DNA from: a virus
DNA: 35,066 nt
Direction: 5' to 3' (one strand)
Virus record (IMG/VR): IMGVR_UViG_3300035703_000255
Coordinates: 1 to 35,066 of that record
In this document: in pieces, positions 1,375 through 34,507 of the stretch
Layout of the letters: every line of letters starts with the position of its first letter
Position numbering within the stretch: the first letter of the stretch is position 1
Program-made: the position numbers and the translations under genes
Notes under the pieces: generated by a model
Told to the model about the DNA's origin: nothing
What the model saw: the letters and a program-made list of their open reading frames with translations, nothing else
Databases searched by the model: none

Positions 1375-1414
1375 TCTTCAGGAATCCTGTCCATGACTTC
1401 CGTTTCTCTCCCCT

Positions 1415-1645
1415 GTGACCACGACCAGCCGCAGGCCGCTGCCCAAGCTGAATGCGCTGAGCCAACTGACGAACGCCAAGGGCGTGCACGGCCTCACCGT
1501 CGGCGGTCTGTGGCGTCTGCGCGACGGGCAGATCGAGGTGCAACGCTTCGGGGGGGTGTGGAGCCGGCCGCCGCTGGCGCAGCTGCAGAAGGGCCCGAGG
1601 GATCTGCTGGTCTGGAACCAGAAGATGGTGCTGGCACCGGGCTAG
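1415..1645 (+). CDS. Small protein of unknown function, overlapping frame upstream of the sigma factor
   Basis: A 76-residue ORF starting at GTG 1415. Its composition looks like a folded protein (for example GLWRLRDGQIEVQRFGGVW), unlike the competing +1-related frame from ATG 1393, which here encodes a low-complexity Arg/Ala/Gly stretch. I therefore prefer this ORF as the real coding frame for 1415-1645. I do not recognise the family. Its TAG stop (1643-1645) abuts two short inverted repeats (1627-1638 and 1645-1661). It sits between terminase and the sigma-like gene; a -1 shift would join it to the sigma frame, but no convincing slippery site was found (GGGCCCG near 1592 is the only in-phase candidate). 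Confidence 0.5.
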   Translation: MTTTSRRPLPKLNALSQLTNAKGVHGLTVGGLWRLRDGQIEVQRFGGVWSRPPLAQLQKGPRDLLVWNQKMVLAPG

Positions 1646-1661
1646 GGAAGCGAGGCTTCCC
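1645..1661 (+). other. Perfect inverted repeat at a stop codon
   Basis: GGGAAGC (1645-1651), loop GAG, GCTTCCC (1655-1661). It begins on the last base of the TAG of the 76-residue ORF. A second inverted repeat, GGTGC-TG-GCACC, lies at 1627-1638. There is no T tract, so it is not a classical terminator; it could separate translation of the two genes or stimulate recoding. Confidence 0.4.
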
Positions 1662-1698
1662 GGCACCTTGGAGCTGGACCAACCCTGAGACCGGCGAG

Positions 1699-2445
1699 GT
1701 GATCGACTCTGAGGCGTTGATCACCGACAACCTGAAGCTGGCGCGCAAATACGCCTGGGGCTGGGCGCGCAAGAGCCAGATGGCCTACGACGACCTGGAG
1801 GCGATCGCCTTCGTCGGTCTGGTGAAGGGCTGCCGCAAGTTCAATCCGGCCAGCGGCTACAAGCTCAGCACCATCGCGGTGCCGTACATCAACGGTGAGA
1901 TCCTTCACCACTTCCGTGATCGGGGCTATGCGGTGAAGTTCCCGGCCCGCTGGCGTGAGGTGATGCCACGCGCCCGACGATTGCTGGAAGCCGGAGAGGA
2001 TCCGCAGGCTGTGTGCGACGCGATCGGCATCGACTCCGGCGAGCTGGAGGAGATGCTCGGTGCCATGGCCGGCACCACCGAGCTCCATGACGAGTTGGTC
2101 GGGGAATCGGAAGCTCAGGTGGAGCTCGATGTGCTGCTGCCGGTGCAGCACCTGGTGAAGACCGCCTGGGAGCGTCTGCATCAGGCCGACCGCAAGCTGC
2201 TGGAGACCTTCTGGAGCGCGCCAGGCCGGCGGCCGGTGTTCCCGACTCAGGCCCTGGCCCAGTTCCTCAACGCTGTGCGGCTGGCTCTGCGCGGTCAGCG
2301 GCTGCCTGAGATCCGCAAGCAGCTGAGCTTGCAGCTCAAGGTCGAGACCGTGAAGCCCGAGCCGAAGCAACGGCGGCCGCGTGGTCGCAATCGCGGGCAG
2401 CTGGAGGTTCAGGCGGTGCAACTTGGGTTGCTTGACTGCGCCTGA
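1699..2445 (+). CDS. Phage-encoded sigma-70 family factor
   Basis: Probably directs RNA polymerase to phage promoters. The segment DDLEAIAFVGLVKGCRKF followed by YKLSTIAVPYINGEI and HHFRDRGYAVKFPARW matches the order of sigma-70 region 2 (core binding, then -10 recognition) as in SigB/SigF-type factors (DL...G..GL..A...F....G..FST.A.P.I.GEI....RD). A region-3-like helical stretch follows (RARRLLEAGEDPQAVCDAIG); region 4 is weak and ends in a basic tail (KQRRPRGRNRGQ). The start is uncertain: GTG 1699 gives 248 residues, while the frame is open back to ATG 1393 (350 residues) through sequence that looks non-coding in this frame. The residues just before 1699 (WSWTNPETGE) look natural, so initiation may be slightly upstream. 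A sigma gene inside the packaging module is unusual and may relate to the repeated element described elsewhere in this window. Confidence 0.75.
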   Translation: MIDSEALITDNLKLARKYAWGWARKSQMAYDDLEAIAFVGLVKGCRKFNPASGYKLSTIAVPYINGEILHHFRDRGYAVKFPARWREVMPRARRLLEAGEDPQAVCDAIGIDSGELEEMLGAMAGTTELHDELVGESEAQVELDVLLPVQHLVKTAWERLHQADRKLLETFWSAPGRRPVFPTQALAQFLNAVRLALRGQRLPEIRKQLSLQLKVETVKPEPKQRRPRGRNRGQLEVQAVQLGLLDCA

Positions 2446-2459
2446 TCGTCAACTGATTT

Positions 2460-4064
2460 GTGACGCCGGAAACCTGGGGCAGCAGGTGGCCGCTGGCGGA
2501 TCTCGGTTTGGAGCAGAAACTCAGCCACTCAACAACCGATCCAGAGCTCCCGAGTTATGAGCACCACGTCCTGCGGGACGTGAAGGGTGACCTGGAGCGC
2601 AACCACGACTGCTGGAACAACCTCAAGGGTCGGCTGGGGCACTACCTGCCCAAAGAGCCCAAGGAGCCTGACGCTGCCTACAAGTTGCGGCTGGGGCGCG
2701 CGAGCTATGTGCCGTTCTTCCGTGATGCGATCACCAGCTTTGCCGGTGTGCTCAGCCGGTTTCAGTTGAAGAACCCTCCCAAGACCTTTGAGGACTCGGT
2801 TGACGACATCGACCGCCGTGGCAACGACCTGACCAGCTTTCTGCAGCAGGCCGATCAGCTGGCCTTGCGGGATGGGGGCTGTCTGATCACGGTCGACATG
2901 CCTGCCGGCGAGGTGGCCACCAACGGCCAGATGCTGATGGAGGGCCGGCGGCCGTATTTGGCCATGGTCGAGCGCAAGGACGTACTGAACTGGCGCGTCC
3001 ACTACGAGGGCGGGCGCGAAGTTCTCGACTGGGTCGTGATCCGCGAGTGGGCCGAGACGCAGGAGGGCCTCTATGGCCTGAAGCTGAAGCCCCGGTATCG
3101 GCTGATCGGGATGTTGGAGGGCCAGGCCTTCTGGCGCGTGCTGGAGATCAGCGAAGGCCGCGCTGGCAAGCCCACCGTGCAGGTGGCGGTTGATGAGAAC
3201 GGTGTGCCGCAGGAAGGCCTCTATCGAGGCCCGGCTGGTCAGCCGTTCCCGGCACCTCCGGTGGTCTGGTACGCCGCCGGTGCGCGTGAGGGCTTTGGCC
3301 AAGGCTCGGTGCGCTTGTCAGGGCTGGCTGAGCTGACGCTGGAACACCTGCGCTGCCGCTCCGATCACGCCGAGCTCAAGCACAAGACCGCCATGCCGGT
3401 GCCGGTGCGCAAGGGTGCGCTGCCGGGCCCTGGTGGCCAGACCCCACCGCTGGTGCTGGGGCCCAACAGCGTGGTGGACCTCGACGCGAACGGGAGCTTC
3501 GGGTTTGCCGAGCCGACCGCGAGCAGCCTGTCGCACCTGGCCGCCGACATCATTCACATCGAGGAGCTGATTCGGCAGCAGACGCTGGCGTTTCTCTATG
3601 GGGAGGGGGGCAACAAGACAGCGACACAGGCCAGCCTGGAGGCGGCTCAAACCGAGGCGTCGTTGCGATCGGTGGCCACTGCCAAGAACAGTGCGGTGCA
3701 GGCTCTGATGCTGCTGTGGTGCAACTTCAGTGGTGAGCGCCTGCCGCAGGATGCTGGGGTAACGATGGCCGCGCACATCTTTGATCGGCCCCTGGCCGCT
3801 CAGGACGTTGCGCAGCTGTCGGCGCTGCAGCAGAACGAGCAGATTTCGACTCGCAGCTTCCTGGAGCAGATCATCAAGGGCGGTGTGCTGACGGTGGTGA
3901 GCTCGGCCGATGTGGAGCTGGAGCGGCTGCAGGAGCAGGTGCCACCGGTGGGCGAGCTGCCCGGGCCGAATGACCTGGCCGGCCTGCTGCCGGAACCGCA
4001 GCAACAGCAGGATGCGATGGACGCCCAGCGTGAGCTGGCAGCGCAGCAGGCTGCTGCTGGCTGA
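2460..4064 (+). CDS. Phage portal protein (DUF4055-like)
   Basis: Forms the dodecameric ring at the capsid vertex through which DNA is packaged and ejected. About 518-534 residues, a normal portal length. The N-terminal part (DAAYKLRLGRASYVPFFRD, then SFAGVLSRF) and central region resemble DUF4055 portals; the C terminus is Gln/Ala-rich and helical. Position immediately after terminase and before a MuF gene supports the call. The GTG at 2460 would translate the repeated GGAAACCTGGGGCA element (2468-2481) as part of the protein. In most other genes the element lies about 28 bases before the start, so a downstream start is plausible; TTG 2508 (LEQKLSHS) or CTG 2493 are the in-frame options. The stop overlaps the next ATG (TGATG). 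Confidence 0.88.
   Translation: MTPETWGSRWPLADLGLEQKLSHSTTDPELPSYEHHVLRDVKGDLERNHDCWNNLKGRLGHYLPKEPKEPDAAYKLRLGRASYVPFFRDAITSFAGVLSRFQLKNPPKTFEDSVDDIDRRGNDLTSFLQQADQLALRDGGCLITVDMPAGEVATNGQMLMEGRRPYLAMVERKDVLNWRVHYEGGREVLDWVVIREWAETQEGLYGLKLKPRYRLIGMLEGQAFWRVLEISEGRAGKPTVQVAVDENGVPQEGLYRGPAGQPFPAPPVVWYAAGAREGFGQGSVRLSGLAELTLEHLRCRSDHAELKHKTAMPVPVRKGALPGPGGQTPPLVLGPNSVVDLDANGSFGFAEPTASSLSHLAADIIHIEELIRQQTLAFLYGEGGNKTATQASLEAAQTEASLRSVATAKNSAVQALMLLWCNFSGERLPQDAGVTMAAHIFDRPLAAQDVAQLSALQQNEQISTRSFLEQIIKGGVLTVVSSADVELERLQEQVPPVGELPGPNDLAGLLPEPQQQQDAMDAQRELAAQQAAAG
2468..2481 (+). promoter_or_regulatory. Recurrent start-associated element, copy 1 (portal)
   Basis: GGAAACCTGGGGCA. It lies inside the 5' end of the longest portal ORF, which suggests that the real portal start is downstream of it. 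Confidence 0.6.
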
Positions 4065-5423: not shown

Positions 5424-5696
5424 ATGCAGAACGAGGTGATGCAGCACCCGTTGTTCCTGCGCAACCCAGAGGGATTAACGGTCGCCCAGTTGAAAGGTCA
5501 GATCAGCCAGTGGCCCGAGTTCGATGAACACGGCAACCCGCTGAAGGTTTATCTGCACTGGGGGTCAGGGATGGCCGTGGCCTGCTGCGAGATGGTGCCC
5601 TTCGATCTCAGTAGTGATGGGGAAGGGGATGGCCACCTGTTGCTCCTCCCCAATGGTGGGTATGAGCTGACGTCAGTGCCGCCGGCGGAAACCTGA
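5424..5696 (+). CDS. Conserved-looking small phage protein, unknown
   Basis: 90 residues from ATG 5424 (MQNEVMQHPLF). ATG 5400 is also in frame but would add only Gly/Pro residues (MGGPGGPG) that encode a GGAGG-rich ribosome-binding region, so 5424 is preferred. It has a mixed alpha/beta composition with one acidic turn (DLSSDGEGDG) followed by HLLLLPNGGYEL. No family recognised. Its last codons (GAA ACC TGA) are formed by the repeated element that precedes the first tagged gene. Confidence 0.65.
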   Translation: MQNEVMQHPLFLRNPEGLTVAQLKGQISQWPEFDEHGNPLKVYLHWGSGMAVACCEMVPFDLSSDGEGDGHLLLLPNGGYELTSVPPAET

Positions 5697-5700
5697 GGCA
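5687..5700 (+). promoter_or_regulatory. Recurrent start-associated element, copy 3
   Basis: Exact consensus GGAAACCTGAGGCA, 29 bases before ATG 5716. It contains the stop codon of the preceding gene (Glu-Thr-stop). Confidence 0.8.
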
Positions 5701-5715: not shown

Positions 5716-6093
5716 ATGGCAGGTAACGGATCGCGCGCTGGTTCGTCTCGCAGCGTCGGCGGGCGTGTCAGTGGTTCGTCAGCCAACGGACAGCAGCAGC
5801 GCTATGCCCAGTTCATCCGCTCCGCTCAGGTGCCTTCCCGTGGGGAGGATTGGGGCGCCAGGTCTCGCGGCCAAGGGAAGCGCAGTGGCGGCATGGTCAG
5901 AGGCGCCATGGCTGCGGTACCGACTGGCATCCGCCGGTACCCGGACTTTCAACGGGCCCGGGGCATGACCCCCACGATCTGGCGTGAAGCGCGGCTGATG
6001 AGCGATGAAGGGAAACGCGCGGTGATCGGGGCCCTTCAGGCTGGCTGGAGCGCTGATCGAGCACTGGGCCTTGGCTACCGCTTCGAGCCCTGA
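5716..6093 (+). CDS. Tagged array protein 1 (MAGNGSR family)
   Basis: 125 residues. The N terminus MAGNGSRAGSSRSVGG is the shared Gly/Ser/Arg tag of the array; the body (about 30-125) is unrelated to the other members by eye. It is strongly basic, with a Gly/Arg-rich middle (ARSRGQGKRSGGM) and a C-terminal helical segment with the pattern WREARLMSDEGKRAVIGAL. No signal peptide, membrane segment or catalytic motif. ATG 5716 is fixed by the tag and by the element 29 bases upstream. Function unknown; a virion-packaged DNA-binding or ejected protein is an inference from the tag, the charge and the location between head and neck genes. Confidence 0.75.
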   Translation: MAGNGSRAGSSRSVGGRVSGSSANGQQQRYAQFIRSAQVPSRGEDWGARSRGQGKRSGGMVRGAMAAVPTGIRRYPDFQRARGMTPTIWREARLMSDEGKRAVIGALQAGWSADRALGLGYRFEP

Positions 6094-6095
6094 CC

Positions 6096-6110
6096 GGAAA
6101 CCTGAGGGCA
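6096..6110 (+). promoter_or_regulatory. Recurrent start-associated element, copy 4
   Basis: GGAAACCTGAGGGCA (one extra G), 29 bases before ATG 6125. A small hairpin CAGC-AGAA-GCTG follows directly. Confidence 0.75.
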
Positions 6111-6463: not shown

Positions 6464-6465
6464 TC

Positions 6466-6479
6466 GGAAATCTGAGGCA
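6466..6479 (+). promoter_or_regulatory. Recurrent start-associated element, copy 5
   Basis: GGAAATCTGAGGCA, 28 bases before ATG 6494. Its TCTGA can pair with TCAGG at about 6484-6488 (one U-G pair), giving a hairpin before the start. Confidence 0.78.
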
Positions 6480-6874: not shown

Positions 6875-6888
6875 GGACTGAACTGATC

Positions 6889-6902
6889 GGAAACCTGAGG
6901 TA
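6889..6902 (+). promoter_or_regulatory. Recurrent start-associated element, copy 6
   Basis: GGAAACCTGAGGTA, 28 bases before ATG 6917. CCTGA pairs perfectly with the downstream TCAGG across a 10-base loop. Confidence 0.78.
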
Positions 6903-7463: not shown

Positions 7464-7466
7464 GGC

Positions 7467-7480
7467 GGAAACCTGAGCCA
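7467..7480 (+). promoter_or_regulatory. Recurrent start-associated element, copy 7
   Basis: GGAAACCTGAGCCA, 28 bases before ATG 7495; GCCA can pair with TGGC just before the start. Confidence 0.75.
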
Positions 7481-8076: not shown

Positions 8077-8080
8077 GGGC

Positions 8081-8094
8081 GGAAATCTGAGGGA
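8081..8094 (+). promoter_or_regulatory. Recurrent start-associated element, copy 8, with Shine-Dalgarno
   Basis: GGAAATCTGAGGGA, 30 bases before ATG 8111. A strong AGGAGG lies separately at 8099-8104, showing that the element is not itself the ribosome-binding site. Confidence 0.75.
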
Positions 8095-8455: not shown

Positions 8456-8464
8456 GACACAGCC

Positions 8465-8478
8465 GGAAATCTGAGGCA
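8465..8478 (+). promoter_or_regulatory. Recurrent start-associated element, copy 9
   Basis: GGAAATCTGAGGCA, 28 bases before GTG 8493. GGCAG can pair with CTGCC immediately before the start, placing the Shine-Dalgarno AGGAG in the loop. Confidence 0.78.
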
Positions 8479-9185: not shown

Positions 9186-9188
9186 ACC

Positions 9189-9202
9189 GGAAATCTGAGG
9201 CA
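9189..9202 (+). promoter_or_regulatory. Recurrent start-associated element, copy 10
   Basis: GGAAATCTGAGGCA, 28 bases before GTG 9217; the same GGCAG/CTGCC pairing as copy 9, with GGGAG in the loop. Confidence 0.78.
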
Positions 9203-9924: not shown

Positions 9925-9929
9925 TCCTG

Positions 9930-9943
9930 GGAAACCTGAGGCA
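9930..9943 (+). promoter_or_regulatory. Recurrent start-associated element, copy 11
   Basis: GGAAACCTGAGGCA, 28 bases before ATG 9958, an untagged gene. CTGA-GGCA-TCAG forms a tight hairpin. Confidence 0.78.
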
Positions 9944-10440: not shown

Positions 10441-10442
10441 GC

Positions 10443-10456
10443 GGAAACCTGAAGCA
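10443..10456 (+). promoter_or_regulatory. Recurrent start-associated element, copy 12, with Shine-Dalgarno
   Basis: GGAAACCTGAAGCA, 29 bases before ATG 10472. A separate AGGAG (10461-10465) sits at normal Shine-Dalgarno distance. Confidence 0.75.
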
Positions 10457-11654: not shown

Positions 11655-11657
11655 GCG

Positions 11658-11671
11658 GGAAACCTGAGGCA
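11658..11671 (+). promoter_or_regulatory. Recurrent start-associated element, copy 13
   Basis: Exact GGAAACCTGAGGCA, 28 bases before ATG 11686, part of the perfect hairpin annotated next. Confidence 0.82.
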
Positions 11672-12174: not shown

Positions 12175-12193
12175 GAGCGTGGAAGTTTGAGCC

Positions 12194-12207
12194 GGAAAGC
12201 TGGCTTA
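12194..12207 (+). promoter_or_regulatory. Recurrent start-associated element, copy 14
   Basis: GGAAAGCTGGCTTA, 31 bases before GTG 12225 (tail chaperone). Confidence 0.7.
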
Positions 12208-14547: not shown

Positions 14548-14796
14548 TCAGCGTTCTTCTGCGCGCTTGACCTGATCCTCGAACGCTTCCATGAAGGCAT
14601 CGATCCGGCCGGCGCGTTTGGCCCAGGTGTCACCACCTGGCAGGCCCTTGCATGGGTTGGGGCAGCTGGGGTCGTTCACCGTGTTGCACACCAGGCCCGC
14701 CAGGTCCAGATCAGTGCCGGGCTTGCCCGTGGCCCAGTAGAGCTGGCCGTCGATCCATCGGGCGCCGCAGCGCTGGCATTGGCGGCAGGCCATCAC
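14548..14796 (-). CDS. Antisense Cys-rich (zinc-ribbon-like) small protein
   Basis: 81-82 residues. It reads MACRQCQRCGARWIDGQLYW then VCNTVNDPSCPNPCKG, with six Cys in CxxCxxC and C...CxxxC spacing, suggesting a metal-binding fold. The start is ATG 14793, or GTG 14796, which lies 29 bases from a minus-strand copy of the recurrent element. It runs opposite to the surrounding tail genes and converges with the 52-residue gene. The sequence looks protein-like in full, whereas the plus-strand frames across it do not. Function unknown. Confidence 0.65.
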   Translation of the reverse strand: MMACRQCQRCGARWIDGQLYWATGKPGTDLDLAGLVCNTVNDPSCPNPCKGLPGGDTWAKRAGRIDAFMEAFEDQVKRAEER

Positions 14797-14811: not shown

Positions 14812-14825
14812 TGCATGAGCTTTCC
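14812..14825 (-). promoter_or_regulatory. Recurrent start-associated element on the minus strand
   Basis: Read on the minus strand: GGAAAGCTCATGCA, beginning at 14825, 29 bases before GTG 14796 and 32 before ATG 14793. It lies back to back with the plus-strand copy at 14830; TTTCCG-AG-CGGAAA is a perfect palindrome centred between them. Confidence 0.65.
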
Positions 14826-14829
14826 GAGC

Positions 14830-14843
14830 GGAAACCTGGGGCA
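14830..14843 (+). promoter_or_regulatory. Recurrent start-associated element, copy 15
   Basis: GGAAACCTGGGGCA. The last A is the first base of ATG 14843, so the distance is only 13 bases, an exception to the usual 28. Confidence 0.7.
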
Positions 14844-15286
14844 TGGCCAGCCCCTATCCCACCAGCGCGCAGGAGATCTACGACTGGCTTGAGGCGGATG
14901 CTGAGCTGGGTGATCTCCTCGGTAGCTATCGCCTCGCCGATGGCTCTCAGATGCCGGCGCTGGCAGTGCTGTGGCCAACGGAATCCATGCCGCCAGGTGT
15001 GGAGCCCTTCGGCGTCGAGGTGGTGATCCGCCGTCAAGTGGGCAGCAGCACCGTCCTGTGGTCCACGGGTGAGCAGCAGCTCAACCCGACATGGCGGCTG
15101 ACGGTGACGCAGTGGGAGCCGATGGAGCTGGGCGACTGGCAGTACGAGGCAGTGCTGCAGCGGCTGGTGGCCCTGTTGCCGGGTGCCAGCTGGTCTGACG
15201 TGACGTTGCCTGGCACGACCGTCGGGCTGGCCCAGGCCGTTCTGCGCTGGGGCAACCCGGCGGTGGTGATTCCTGCGGAGGTGTAA
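14843..15286 (+). CDS. Tail terminator candidate
   Basis: 147 residues, MASPYPTSAQEIYDWLEAD start, alternating alpha/beta with a Trp-rich middle (NPTWRLTVTQWEPMELGDWQ) and a Val/Ala-rich C terminus. Size and place between tail tube and tape measure fit the tail terminator that caps the tube, but no diagnostic motif was seen. It is followed after four bases by the tape measure gene. Confidence 0.5.
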   Translation: MASPYPTSAQEIYDWLEADAELGDLLGSYRLADGSQMPALAVLWPTESMPPGVEPFGVEVVIRRQVGSSTVLWSTGEQQLNPTWRLTVTQWEPMELGDWQYEAVLQRLVALLPGASWSDVTLPGTTVGLAQAVLRWGNPAVVIPAEV

Positions 15287-23619: not shown

Positions 23620-26394
23620 ATGACCCCGCCAATCGATCCCGCAAGCTGGGTTCGCCTCCCGGTCCCGCTGACGGGTCTGCAGCAGGTATCAGGCGCAGTC
23701 GACAACGAAACCTTCGCGCCAGCCAACACAGTCGCCATCCCGGCGGATCTGGATGAGGACGATCCGAGCGCATTTTTCAGAACGCTGCCCTCTGAGGACG
23801 ATGACGACCTAGTCACGGATCAAGTCTTCACAAAGCCGGTTGAGCCCTACGCGCTCAAGCCCGACACGTCGCTGCGTTCACGATCAAAGCTGCGGGTTTA
23901 CTTCTATCAGTACAGCCTCGATGCAGGCCAGTACGAGGAAGAGCTGCAGACGAGGGCAGGGGCTACAGCAGCTGTCTACACGGTGCCTGTCGACTACCTG
24001 GCCAGTTACGCCAGGGCATTTACAGAGATCAACGACCAGCCGCCCCCTCCGCCTGAGCCCTTGACGGTAGTGGAGGGCAGTGCAGCACCGGTGCTTGGGG
24101 CTGGCGCCGTGGCCTCGCTGACGGCTCTGGATGAGTACCAGGTCAAGCACTGGGAGCCAACAGCGGGCTACTGGGACGACGAGGAAGGCTTCTCCTTCCT
24201 GCTCAAGGACTGGCTGACGCTCAGTGGCACGTCTTACTACCGAGGGCTGCTGACCACCAACGGCTACGTGGCGGTGCCTGAGACCGCAGCGGTCACCTAT
24301 TCGCCAAGCCTGACCAACCCGGCCAACCCCAAGCTGCTGGTGGGCGCTGGTGACTATGAAGCGCGGTTGATCGCCGTGCAGCAGGGCACCAACTATGTCC
24401 GGCTGCGCACCGAGCTCAGGCCCTACGGGGGCGCCGCTGGTGACCCCGCAACGGTGGTGTGGGAGGCCACGTTCTTCCATCCGATGCAGGACGGCACGCA
24501 GCTGATCGAAGTGCGCATCGGCTCGGTGGTTACGGCTGGGCTGGAGTCGAGCGACCTCACGCTGGCCAGCGCCAGCACTGCCTATGCCACAGCGACCCTG
24601 ACGGCCAACACCAGCTACGTCTTTGTCGGTGACGCCACCGGCAGTCAATGGGTGGTGAACAGCGGCTACCACGTCGACAACGCAACCGGCGTCTATGCCC
24701 ACGACATCAGCAGGGCCAGCCTGGCGCGGCTTGTGGTGGAGGCCGAGCTCAGCGTGTCGGCGGTGGTGAAGGCAGGGATCGAGGAGAAACCCACGCAGTT
24801 CTTCACGGCGCTGAGCTTTCAGGGCAACACAACCGCTCGGACCATCAGCACCCCGAACGTGTATCCAGCCTTCATCATCCACAAGGCAGGGACGGGCTAT
24901 CAGCTCTACGCCTGGTTTGGCGCATCAGTCTTCAACAGAGCTGGCCAGGCAACAGACGTCAATGGCGGCGCCGAGAACGCGCCCAAATACGCAAGTCTTG
25001 GCTACGTCTTCGACTACTCAGCTTCTGTTGTCGCACAAGGCTTTACTGAATATGGCCTTGGTTACTACAAGCTCGGCACTGATGCCAACGTCAACATCAA
25101 CACAAGCGGCACCTGCAACAACATCTTCTCCTGGGTGCTAGGTGGCAATGGAGCCCCACGGCTGAACACGGCAGGCAGCTTGAGGGGAGGTGTTGACTGC
25201 TGGAACGTCACGAGCAACTGGGGCTTCTCCACGTTTGCCTGGGTGGGCAAGCCAGCAGCGGACTATAACGACGCCATCGGCATGCCTGTTGGCCACGGCC
25301 TTAGAGACCGCGAAGGGAACAAGATCAAGCCGCAGATCGTTTTTGCCAAGCGCTATTACGTCAACAACAACCTCAGGAACCCGATCAGCGTTGCCGGCGA
25401 GGTTCTGGGCGCCGACATCGATCTAGGAGAGGTGTGGGGTTCCAGCTGGGCTGGCTACAAGGGCAACTACTACATGGAGCTGGCCAGGAAGGATTCCTTC
25501 GGCAACACCGGCGTCAACCCTGCCTACCTGACGGCCGATTATCTCAACTACAACTACAACAACTACTACAAGGCAAAAGTCGCAGACGAAGACTGCGTCT
25601 ACATGAACAACAACGGCAAAGGCAGCCCCAACAGCACGATGATCGGCTGGGCCTTCGCCAACGTCCCTGGCTCCTGCAAGATCGGGCGCGTCACGTCCCA
25701 GGGCGCTACGACCACTGCGGTGATCACAGGCTTCCCGGTGCGGATGGTGATCATGAAGTGCATCACCGCTTCGTCATCCTGGCTGCTGTTCGGTCAGCAG
25801 ACGTGCCTGGCCACCGGTGCGTTTGAGATCCACACGAACGCCGTCGCCTTCAGCACAACCATTGCCTCAGTCACGTTCACGGGGGCCGGTTTCGACTGGG
25901 CCAACAAGCTCAGCGACGAGGGGCAGGAGTGGCTCTACATCGCCGTGGGCGGCTACGGCCCTGATGAGGTGATCTACGCCGCCTACCTGGAGCCAGGCGC
26001 CTTCGGGGCGACGGGCATCGCAGCCGGCAGCAAGCGCAACCGGATCATGGCCGCTGAGCCCGGCGCCGTTGAGGTCGGGGAGGTTCCGGTAGTGCTGGCC
26101 TACAACCGAAGCCCACTGGCCGCAGAGGGCGCTGAGGTGAGCGTTGGCGGGCAGGAGGCGATCCTCTGGAAGGGCCGAGCCATTGATGCAGTTGCCGCCG
26201 AGGTCGCCCTGGAAGGCCAGGCCGCTGCGCTGTTCAGGTCGGCCATCATCCCGTTGACGACCGAGCCGGCGCAGATGCTGCTGACCGGGCAGGCAGCACT
26301 GCTGGCCGGCCCAGGCGGCGACTACTGGACCAACTGGGGCGATCAGCACTACCTCTGGGTGGCGGCTTACCTGCCTGATTCCTGGGCCAGCTAG
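23620..26394 (+). CDS. Large tail fibre/tip protein
   Basis: 924 residues, starting four bases after the previous stop. The N-terminal 150 residues are Asp/Glu/Pro-rich (DEDDPSAFFRTLPSEDDDD) and may attach to the hub. The middle and C-terminal part is beta-rich, with a block (GVDCWNVTSNWGFSTFAWVG, PQIVFAKRYY, SSWLLFGQQTC, EWLYIAVGGYGPDEV) resembling the concanavalin/DUF7483-like domains of phage tail fibres. Its probable role is host-surface recognition. Tyr/Asn-rich runs (NYNYNNYYKAKV) are typical of fibre knobs. Confidence 0.65.
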   Translation: MTPPIDPASWVRLPVPLTGLQQVSGAVDNETFAPANTVAIPADLDEDDPSAFFRTLPSEDDDDLVTDQVFTKPVEPYALKPDTSLRSRSKLRVYFYQYSLDAGQYEEELQTRAGATAAVYTVPVDYLASYARAFTEINDQPPPPPEPLTVVEGSAAPVLGAGAVASLTALDEYQVKHWEPTAGYWDDEEGFSFLLKDWLTLSGTSYYRGLLTTNGYVAVPETAAVTYSPSLTNPANPKLLVGAGDYEARLIAVQQGTNYVRLRTELRPYGGAAGDPATVVWEATFFHPMQDGTQLIEVRIGSVVTAGLESSDLTLASASTAYATATLTANTSYVFVGDATGSQWVVNSGYHVDNATGVYAHDISRASLARLVVEAELSVSAVVKAGIEEKPTQFFTALSFQGNTTARTISTPNVYPAFIIHKAGTGYQLYAWFGASVFNRAGQATDVNGGAENAPKYASLGYVFDYSASVVAQGFTEYGLGYYKLGTDANVNINTSGTCNNIFSWVLGGNGAPRLNTAGSLRGGVDCWNVTSNWGFSTFAWVGKPAADYNDAIGMPVGHGLRDREGNKIKPQIVFAKRYYVNNNLRNPISVAGEVLGADIDLGEVWGSSWAGYKGNYYMELARKDSFGNTGVNPAYLTADYLNYNYNNYYKAKVADEDCVYMNNNGKGSPNSTMIGWAFANVPGSCKIGRVTSQGATTTAVITGFPVRMVIMKCITASSSWLLFGQQTCLATGAFEIHTNAVAFSTTIASVTFTGAGFDWANKLSDEGQEWLYIAVGGYGPDEVIYAAYLEPGAFGATGIAAGSKRNRIMAAEPGAVEVGEVPVVLAYNRSPLAAEGAEVSVGGQEAILWKGRAIDAVAAEVALEGQAAALFRSAIIPLTTEPAQMLLTGQAALLAGPGGDYWTNWGDQHYLWVAAYLPDSWAS

Positions 26395-26407
26395 GAAAGC
26401 TGGGGCA
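26394..26407 (+). promoter_or_regulatory. Recurrent start-associated element, copy 16
   Basis: GGAAAGCTGGGGCA, 28 bases before ATG 26422. GGAA-AGC can pair with GCT-g-TTCC immediately before the ATG. The element overlaps the TAG stop of the fibre gene. Confidence 0.75.
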
Positions 26408-27900: not shown

Positions 27901-27911
27901 ATAGGCGCGCC

Positions 27912-27925
27912 GGAAAGCTAGGGCC
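27912..27925 (+). promoter_or_regulatory. Recurrent start-associated element, copy 17
   Basis: GGAAAGCTAGGGCC, 28 bases before ATG 27940. AAGC can pair with GCTT immediately before the ATG. Confidence 0.72.
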
Positions 27926-28382: not shown

Positions 28383-28790
28383 ATGCCCTACACGACGACC
28401 ATCAGCCAGTTCGAGCTCGCCCGGCAGGCCAACCTGGCCTACCTGGGCAAGGGCTACAAGCTATTCCTGGCCGTGAACCCGGGTTCATTGACTGCCCAGT
28501 CCCTGGCCAGTGATTGGCTTGCGGCCGAGGTGAGCGGCAACGGTTATGCCGCAATCACCGGCACGGTGGCCGCTGGCACTTACCGCACAGCAGAGCAGCG
28601 CTACGAGATGCCGGCGATCGTGGCCACCTTCCAGGCCAGCGGCGGCACCCTGGCCTACGACACGGTGTGCATGCACTTCACCGGCGAGGACTACCTGCAC
28701 AGCATCACGGTTGAGAGCCCCTCGATCAGCCTCGCTTCTGGCCAGGCCAAGAGTTACAGCCTGACCCTCGTTCAGGACGACTACGCATGA
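28383..28790 (+). CDS. Tandem virion protein paralogue A
   Basis: 135 residues. Shares with the next two genes an N-terminal helix (FELARQANLAYLGKGYKLFL), a central NGYAAITGTVAAGTY strand, RYEMPAIVATF, the YLHSITVE segment, and the terminal LVQDD. Beta-rich; probably a tail-fibre or tip subunit. The three copies overlap or abut (ATGA, then two bases), so they are expressed together, and they look like an old triplication. Confidence 0.65.
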   Translation: MPYTTTISQFELARQANLAYLGKGYKLFLAVNPGSLTAQSLASDWLAAEVSGNGYAAITGTVAAGTYRTAEQRYEMPAIVATFQASGGTLAYDTVCMHFTGEDYLHSITVESPSISLASGQAKSYSLTLVQDDYA

Positions 28791-29197
28791 CGCTGACTGT
28801 CACGATTACGCCGGGCGAGCTTGAGCGCCAGGCAAGCCTGATCTATCAAGGCAAGTCATTTGAGGTGTTCCTGGTCTCCAACAGCACTCAGCCAACACCG
28901 CTGGATGCCACCAGCACTTACGCGGAGTGGAAGGCGATCGAGGTAGCTGGCAACGGCTATGTCACGGCGAGTGGCACGGTCGGTTTTGGCGCTTACAACC
29001 AGACCTCAACACGCTTTGAAGTAGCGCCGCTCGTTGCCTCGTTCAGTGCTGCAGGTGGTGACATCGTCTTCGACACGATCTGCGTGAAGGTCGGCGCGGG
29101 CGGCTACCTGCACTCGATACAGGTGGAGGACCCAGCCATCACCATCCTTGACGGCGGCAGCCGGACCTATCTGATCTCCCTTGTGCAGGACGACTGA
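28787..29197 (+). CDS. Tandem virion protein paralogue B
   Basis: 136 residues, overlapping paralogue A by four bases (ATGA). Starts MTLTVTITPGELERQASLIY, very like C (MALTVTITPKELERQAALAF), and has the same NGY...SGTV, RFEVAPLVASF, YLHSIQVEDP and LVQDD landmarks. B and C are closer to each other at the N terminus than to A. Confidence 0.65.
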   Translation: MTLTVTITPGELERQASLIYQGKSFEVFLVSNSTQPTPLDATSTYAEWKAIEVAGNGYVTASGTVGFGAYNQTSTRFEVAPLVASFSAAGGDIVFDTICVKVGAGGYLHSIQVEDPAITILDGGSRTYLISLVQDD

Positions 29198-29199
29198 CG

Positions 29200-29607
29200 A
29201 TGGCACTGACCGTCACGATCACACCGAAGGAACTGGAGCGTCAGGCGGCTCTGGCCTTTGAAGGCCAGGCCTACAAGGTGTTTCTGGTCAGTGACCCGAA
29301 CGCCACGCTGGACGAAACCAGCACTCTGGCCGAGTGGGAAGCCCTGGAGCTGGCGGAGGAGAAAGGCTATGCCCCGGTCACCGGCACCGTGGCAGTGGGC
29401 AGCTACAGCACAGCCAACGCGCAATACGAGATCCCGGCGATCGAGGCCAGCTTTACAGGGCTCGACACGGGCTACACCCATGACGTGGTGATCCTTTCGA
29501 TTGGCGGTGCTGCCTACCCCCACAGCGTGATGCGGCAATCCGATGCGGTGCTGCTGCAGGCCAGTCAGAGCATCGGGTACAAGTTCCGCCTGATTCAGGA
29601 CGACTGA
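29200..29607 (+). CDS. Tandem virion protein paralogue C
   Basis: 135 residues, starting two bases after B and overlapping the next gene (TGATG). N terminus nearly the same as B. The central acidic insertion (EWEALELAEEKGYAP) and the AAYPHSV variant of YLHSI distinguish it. Ends LIQDD. Confidence 0.65.
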   Translation: MALTVTITPKELERQAALAFEGQAYKVFLVSDPNATLDETSTLAEWEALELAEEKGYAPVTGTVAVGSYSTANAQYEIPAIEASFTGLDTGYTHDVVILSIGGAAYPHSVMRQSDAVLLQASQSIGYKFRLIQDD

Positions 29608-31552: not shown

Positions 31553-31708
31553 ATGGCTGACCAGAAGCCCCAGGAGCAGGTCCAGGAGGATTACGGCGAC
31601 CTGATGGAACGGTTGCAGATGCGCGTTGCCGCCAACCGGATGGCTGCCACCAAGCGCTCTGAGCGTCAGAGCCTGACGAAACGACTGAGCAGGAGTTCGG
31701 AAACCTAA
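31553..31708 (+). CDS. Small helical protein before the scaffold gene
   Basis: 51 residues from ATG 31553, two bases after the previous stop. Highly charged and helical (QEQVQEDYGDLMERLQMR, NRMAATKRSERQSLTKRL). Its last codons are GAA ACC TAA, formed by the recurrent element at 31699, the same Glu-Thr-stop arrangement as at 5687. Too small to classify. Confidence 0.55.
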   Translation: MADQKPQEQVQEDYGDLMERLQMRVAANRMAATKRSERQSLTKRLSRSSET

Positions 31709-31712
31709 GCCG
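31699..31712 (+). promoter_or_regulatory. Recurrent start-associated element, copy 18
   Basis: GGAAACCTAAGCCG, 21 bases before ATG 31720 (scaffold). It contains the TAA of the preceding small gene. Confidence 0.65.
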
Positions 31713-32640: not shown

Positions 32641-32654
32641 GCCGTCAAGCGGTT

Positions 32655-32668
32655 GGAAAGCTGTTGCA
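32655..32668 (+). promoter_or_regulatory. Recurrent start-associated element, copy 19
   Basis: GGAAAGCTGTTGCA, just downstream of the terminator and exactly 28 bases before ATG 32683, which opens a 40-codon ORF. It is the only copy located in a clear intergenic region after a terminator. Confidence 0.65.
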
Positions 32669-34491: not shown

Positions 34492-34493
34492 GC

Positions 34494-34507
34494 GGAAAGC
34501 TGGCCTA
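34494..34507 (+). promoter_or_regulatory. Recurrent start-associated element, copy 20
   Basis: GGAAAGCTGGCCTA, 27 bases before ATG 34521. Confidence 0.7.

Follow-up and report, generated by a model that had tools for sequence, protein, structure and literature searches.

Back-to-back copies of a gene-start element between divergent cyanophage genes: a probable pair of one-block promoters read by a phage SigF/SigB-like sigma factor

The window, a cyanophage virus record analysed over its whole length of 35,066 bases, carries two 15-bp elements back to back at 14812-14843, between two divergent genes. The minus-strand gene (14548..14793) encodes a small Cys-rich protein of the phrog_484 family (profile match E 1.5e-29; residues 2-80 of 82 against profile positions 11-90 of 92). 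The earlier note had started this gene at GTG 14796; the gene is real, but its orthologues keep ATG 14793, one codon inside. The plus-strand gene (14843..15286; 147 aa) lies between the tail protein and tape measure genes, its orthologues share the N-terminal pattern MxLPxTAQxIYD, and its start codon coincides with the end of an element.

The plus element, CGGAAACCTGGGGCA (14829..14843), ends on the A of ATG 14843, and the minus element, CGGAAAGCTCATGCA, occupies 14826-14812 on the opposite strand. Together they fill exactly the span in which one plus-strand and one minus-strand element had been proposed, and both halves extend to full 15-bp copies. Their first six bases form at the junction the inverted repeat TTTCCG-AG-CGGAAA (14821..14834; TTTCCGAGCGGAAA, with a single occurrence in the window). 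The TTTCCG/CGGAAA observation is thus confirmed, although the wording "perfect palindrome" suits only the 6-bp arms, which pair without mismatch; with AG between them as a 2-base spacer, the whole 14-mer is not self-complementary. The minus copy does precede the antisense gene, at 24 nt from GTG 14796, counted from the end of CGGAAA, and not at the 29 given before; ATG 14793 follows at 27 nt. Under a weight matrix whose training set was 127 copies, all from other contigs, the plus copy scored 21.2 bits and the minus copy 18.1 bits. The latter is the top match on the entire minus strand (runner-up 12.3); Markov-shuffled sequence would give 0.01 matches this good per strand. Because the phrog_484 gene is inverted, a plus-strand operon cannot serve it. 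A lone inverted gene separates a promoter of this gene from a part of an operon leader, which made the locus an apt choice.

Within the window, GGAAANCTRRG occurs 15 times on the plus strand and 0 times on the minus strand. Plus-strand copies of the element lie 23 nt before the start codon at 6465..6479 (ATG 6494), 6888..6902 (ATG 6917), 7466..7480 (ATG 7495), 8464..8478 (GTG 8493), 9188..9202 (GTG 9217), 9929..9943 (ATG 9958; a GGGAAA variant), 11657..11671 (ATG 11686), 26393..26407 (ATG 26422) and 27911..27925 (ATG 27940). The distance is 22 nt at 34493..34507 (ATG 34521), 24 nt at 5686..5700 (ATG 5716), 6095..6109 (ATG 6125) and 10442..10456 (ATG 10472), 25 nt at 8080..8094 (ATG 8111), and 26 nt at 12193..12207 (GTG 12225). 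Before the scaffold gene, the copy at 31698..31712 (plus) lies 25 nt from GTG 31729, which is kept in contig G001, and 16 nt from ATG 31720. A weaker plus-strand copy before the major head protein gene (32654..32668) stands 19 nt after an intrinsic terminator. The weight matrix also placed a plus-strand copy before the portal gene (2467..2481); the start of that open reading frame, GTG 2460, precedes the element, so that the true start probably lies further in, and within 2460-2510 on the plus strand no in-frame ATG or GTG was seen at the usual distance.

Ten element-led plus-strand genes (starts at 5716, 6125, 6494, 6917, 7495, 8111, 8493, 9217, 10472 and 11686) share an N-terminal stretch like MAGNGSRxGSxRxxGG, the remainder of the proteins being different. 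A PHROGs search of eight of the ten proteins gave 0 matches, and several genes of G001 have a similar beginning. One possible role for the stretch is as a common tag for targeting or packaging. At 28383-29607 on the plus strand, three genes of 135-136 aa stand in tandem and are separated by repeated DNA.

The consensus of 193 matrix-selected sites is CGGAAACCTGAGGCA, with the core GGMAANCT. Counting from 0, position 4 is A and position 8 is T in 190 of the 193 sites each; these two positions are four apart, as are A-11 and T-7 of the -10 box. Position 13 is a pyrimidine in 175/193 and position 14 a purine in 185/193, counts that are inflated at all matrix columns, the terminal A included, by the selection of sites with the matrix. 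The 18 hand-read copies of the window, which seeded the matrix and are therefore a less circular count, have a pyrimidine at the second-last position in 16/18 and a purine at the last in 16/18. GG(A/C)AA is present in most of the 193 matrix-selected sites, at a predicted distance from the transcription start. No conserved block was found upstream of the element among 151 sites (those above 13 bits in seven contigs).

Spacing to start codons fell into two classes. An ATG or GTG of an open reading frame of at least 50 codons stood at 22-28 nt from 86 of these 151 sites, versus 7.1% of random positions, and an ATG was fused to the element at 8 nt in 13/151, versus 0.4% of random positions; both classes occurred together at none of the 151 (Fisher p 8e-6). 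Neither class applied to 52 sites: five had starts solely within 10-21 nt, 16 solely within 29-59 nt, and 31 lacked any start within 60 nt. Transcription starting on the final purine would explain both classes, the mRNA being either leaderless or preceded by a leader of about 15-20 nt.

Relatives of the inverted gene bear out both earlier claims, that elements are oriented with genes and that they function at gene starts. Of 80 relatives, 25 keep the minus half 25-28 nt before the conserved ATG of phrog_484, which makes 26 of 81 rows when the window is counted; two further automatic matches before phrog_484 (L042 and L073) were judged false and left out of the 26/81, and the degenerate copy in L018 was below the threshold. 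The 81 rows are not independent, since near-identical contigs were counted separately (e.g., L030-L032 with L052; L016, L023 and L028). In 15 of the 81 rows, the window included, an opposite element lies back to back with that of phrog_484, with a gap of -1 in five rows, 2 in three, 8 in six and 10 in one. In the remaining 11 true rows, phrog_484 has its element but no divergent partner close by; the gene thus retains its own signal in unlike contexts. Given that the gap varies, the palindrome is not a unit, and the relatives indicate that the conserved feature is the back-to-back geometry, with the palindrome incidental to it. Most relatives that lack the element have a lower G+C content; one of them, L011, has a TATAAATA-like box close to the phrog_484 start, which we take to be T4-late-like.

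Over seven contigs, the window and six related ones, divergent element pairs numbered 13 versus 0.62 expected, and convergent pairs 0; some of the 13 are orthologous and they are not 13 independent events. In nine of the 13, each of the two elements is followed at 8 or 22-28 nt by the start of an open reading frame of 50 codons or more; in the other four, what follows one of the elements at 24-26 nt is a short gene or a truncated copy of phrog_484. The truncated copy, a second phrog_484 of 29 codons in G002 (39678; L103), keeps its own element 26 nt upstream. The short gene is a conserved Lys/Gly-rich one of 38-43 codons, with an element and a GTG at 24 nt, in G004 (15994), G005 (11441) and G008 (6205), where it is divergent to a 164-aa gene. 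True gene starts are marked by the element, also where a small divergent gene of 38-43 codons is missed by a list of open reading frames with a 50-codon limit.

By terminase, major tail protein and sigma factor, the window is nearest to the cyanosiphoviruses S-CBS2, S-CRES1-3 and P-SS2. Exact k-mer counts showed little motif in these sibling phages; aligned upstream regions revealed a looser form, GGHANNCTA, preceding virion genes in S-CBS2, S-CRES1/3 and P-SS2. S-CBS2 has 40 such sites, 33 of them before 41.5 kb, the part holding most virion genes, with annotated starts typically following 27-33 nt after the first G; in S-CRES3, 23 of 31 plus-strand sites are in the virion part. The form was derived from S-CBS2 and S-CRES3, so that only S-CRES1 (18 plus, 3 minus) and P-SS2 (17 plus, 1 minus; 100 kb searched) are held-out tests of strand bias, in genomes whose genes are mostly on the plus strand. 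Around terminators of the siblings, GGHANNCTA lay within 30 nt after 15/175 and before 4/175. This bias holds for S-CRES1/3; it was absent from S-CBS2 (2 after, 3 before), and adjacency was weak in the window's own clade (2/90).

The proposed reader of the element is a phage sigma factor encoded at 1393..2445 (plus), in which regions 2-3 were detected and region 4 was not. Its best profiles are of the SigF/SigB subfamily (NF005644 SigF, 5.1e-23; TIGR02980 SigBFG, 7.5e-18; residues about 107-233), all with scores below the curated cut-offs, which makes it a divergent relative of SigF/SigB. The nearest solved chain by sequence is 8x6g_H, presumably from an S. aureus SigB complex. Profile search of the phage sigma and five homologues (6 proteins) found no region 4 family at E<=5; the AlphaFold model was poor (four sequences, mean pLDDT 44), and the lack of region 4 is accordingly read from the profile searches only. 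Directly before the sigma ATG, an element-like GGAATCCTGTCC (1379-1395, plus) would fit autoregulation. In L090, GGCAACCTCCC stands before an ATG at about 5300.

A sigma homologue was found in 6 of 9 element-bearing contigs at loci chosen for element density or kinship, and in 7 of 10 chosen from 47 stretches for element density and contig size. All nine of those of at least 40 kb had one, and the 6 of 19 without a match were all fragments of 11-30 kb. Among 20 element-poor phrog_484 contigs, chosen mainly among longer ones, one had a sigma, by a weak match. Taken from the sigma side, six contigs were found, and 3 of the 4 examined (L089, L090 and L091) have the element at gene starts in low number. 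L087 and L088 have the sigma and 0 elements above 13 bits. The association of sigma and element is confounded by descent.

That the element is a promoter appears very likely on these comparisons, even though its core is G+C-rich for a melting region, which counts against such a reading. The tight spacing to start codons and the position of elements right after upstream stop codons would also suit a signal in the RNA, such as a ribosome-binding enhancer, a processing site or a protein-binding site in the 5' leader. This is quite improbable: in the fused class GRGG lies 1-2 nt from the ATG, too close for a Shine-Dalgarno sequence, a fixed transcription start accounts better for two separate spacings with hardly any sites between them, and the elements come after terminators in S-CRES1/3. 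A known RNA family was rejected as well, the site having no Rfam match, and its RNA folds did not surpass those of shuffled sequence (z -0.46 and +1.05). The same folds, with the gap of -1, 2, 8 or 10 among relatives and the single state of most copies, weigh against the palindrome as an operator of a dimeric protein or as a hairpin, a very remote prospect despite its perfect 6-bp arms and the recurrence of the 4-nt spacing of the GG pairs in a divergent pair of S-CBS2 (36115/36120). Chance juxtaposition, with a minus half devoid of function, is more far-fetched still; the window has one such locus, but both the 0.01 matches expected per strand and the conservation in relatives speak against it.

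Evidence for a promoter does not name its reader, and a box recognised by host polymerase (host SigF/SigA) with a phage activator has to be considered; cyanophage Ma-LMM01 has been reported to run all its classes on host sigma (PMC5780444). This seems unlikely, however, in the face of the phage sigma in all nine of the larger element-bearing contigs tested and of a GG-type box that fits the SigB/SigF family to which that sigma belongs. A signal of host genomes was also rejected: a search for the element joined to a start codon, by the narrow pattern of exact CGGAAACCTGAGGCA followed by ATGGC, gave two genome contigs only, neither of them cyanobacterial. A promoter of a T7-like polymerase was discarded because the single-subunit RNA polymerase family PF00940 was absent from 13 records, some of them incomplete, while the Syn5 control matched (4.2e-77). 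The phage sigma is, with good probability, the reader of the element.

What the contigs display is that elements point the same way as their genes and keep set distances from start codons, that the pair is conserved, and that elements occur together with one sigma family. The locus is probably a back-to-back pair of complete one-block promoters, each read by the phage SigF/SigB-like sigma; the earlier note had named no mechanism, and a promoter is a sharper version of its function at gene starts. Each 15-bp element would be a complete promoter for virion genes. Host core RNA polymerase carrying the phage sigma would bind GGMAANCT as an extended -10 box, in which A and T come after GG at the spacing of A-11 and T-7; with no recognisable region 4 in the sigma, a -35 box would not be needed. 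Initiation is predicted at the final purine of a pyrimidine-purine initiator, at 14843 on the plus strand and at 14812 on the minus strand, 19 nt before ATG 14793. As ATG 14843 is fused to the initiator, a leaderless mRNA is predicted for the 147-aa gene, and such a leaderless start is rather likely; unfused start codons would follow a leader of about 15-20 nt. With predicted starts 31 bp apart, two polymerases would hardly fit at once, and the two genes would compete.

More tentatively, and with somewhat less than even probability, an entire group of cyanosiphoviruses may express its virion genes from minimal one-block promoters with a built-in initiator, recognised by a pared-down SigF-like sigma devoid of region 4, with start codons either fused (leaderless) or a leader away. 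Changes of gene direction would be marked by back-to-back pairs, even overlapping by 1-2 bp, that force the polymerase to choose and set the product ratio. The analysis gives a site testable base by base and predicted starts, names the genes that would be regulated, and predicts that some virion mRNAs are leaderless.

T4 late promoters are a single block without a -35 box, read by the phage sigma gp55, and many virion genes have their own copy; the T4 late box is TATAAATA. The element resembles them in being a single block without -35, with a phage sigma in the same genome and separate copies at many virion genes, and differs in its box, the consensus being GC-rich and not of the T4 kind. The role of gp55 at T4 late promoters is described in PMC5780444. 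Synechocystis SigF promoters have TAGGC at -32 and GGTAA at -12, and those of B. subtilis SigB have GGGTAT (PMC2758279). The phage GGMAA is akin to the G-rich -10/-12 box of Synechocystis SigF (pilA1, sigF; group 3) and B. subtilis SigB, and its sigma is of the same family by profile. Unlike SigF promoters, the element has an extra conserved CT and a pyrimidine-purine initiator, and no TAGGC box at about -32 was seen among the 151 sites; unlike those systems, the phage sigma has no detectable region 4 and would serve virion genes, not pili or stress.

In P-SS2, a group 3 sigma (ORF003) was annotated beside terL in 2009 and its target sites were left open (PMC2784084). The sigma of the window has the same gene position, after terL, and belongs to the same family. 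The P-SS2 authors predicted sigma-70 promoters, the available passages of their paper name no group 3 site, and Fig. S1 is a promoter logo according to its legend (PMC2784084). A literature search, mostly of articles free of subscription and of their main texts, found no cyanosiphovirus site for a group 3 sigma. In E. coli, pseudo-symmetric bidirectional promoters are described from which transcription diverges and to which polymerases bind in a mutually exclusive manner (PMC12825309). Both traits are proposed for the present locus; unlike those pseudo-symmetrical sequences, it consists of two separate directional elements with a variable gap.
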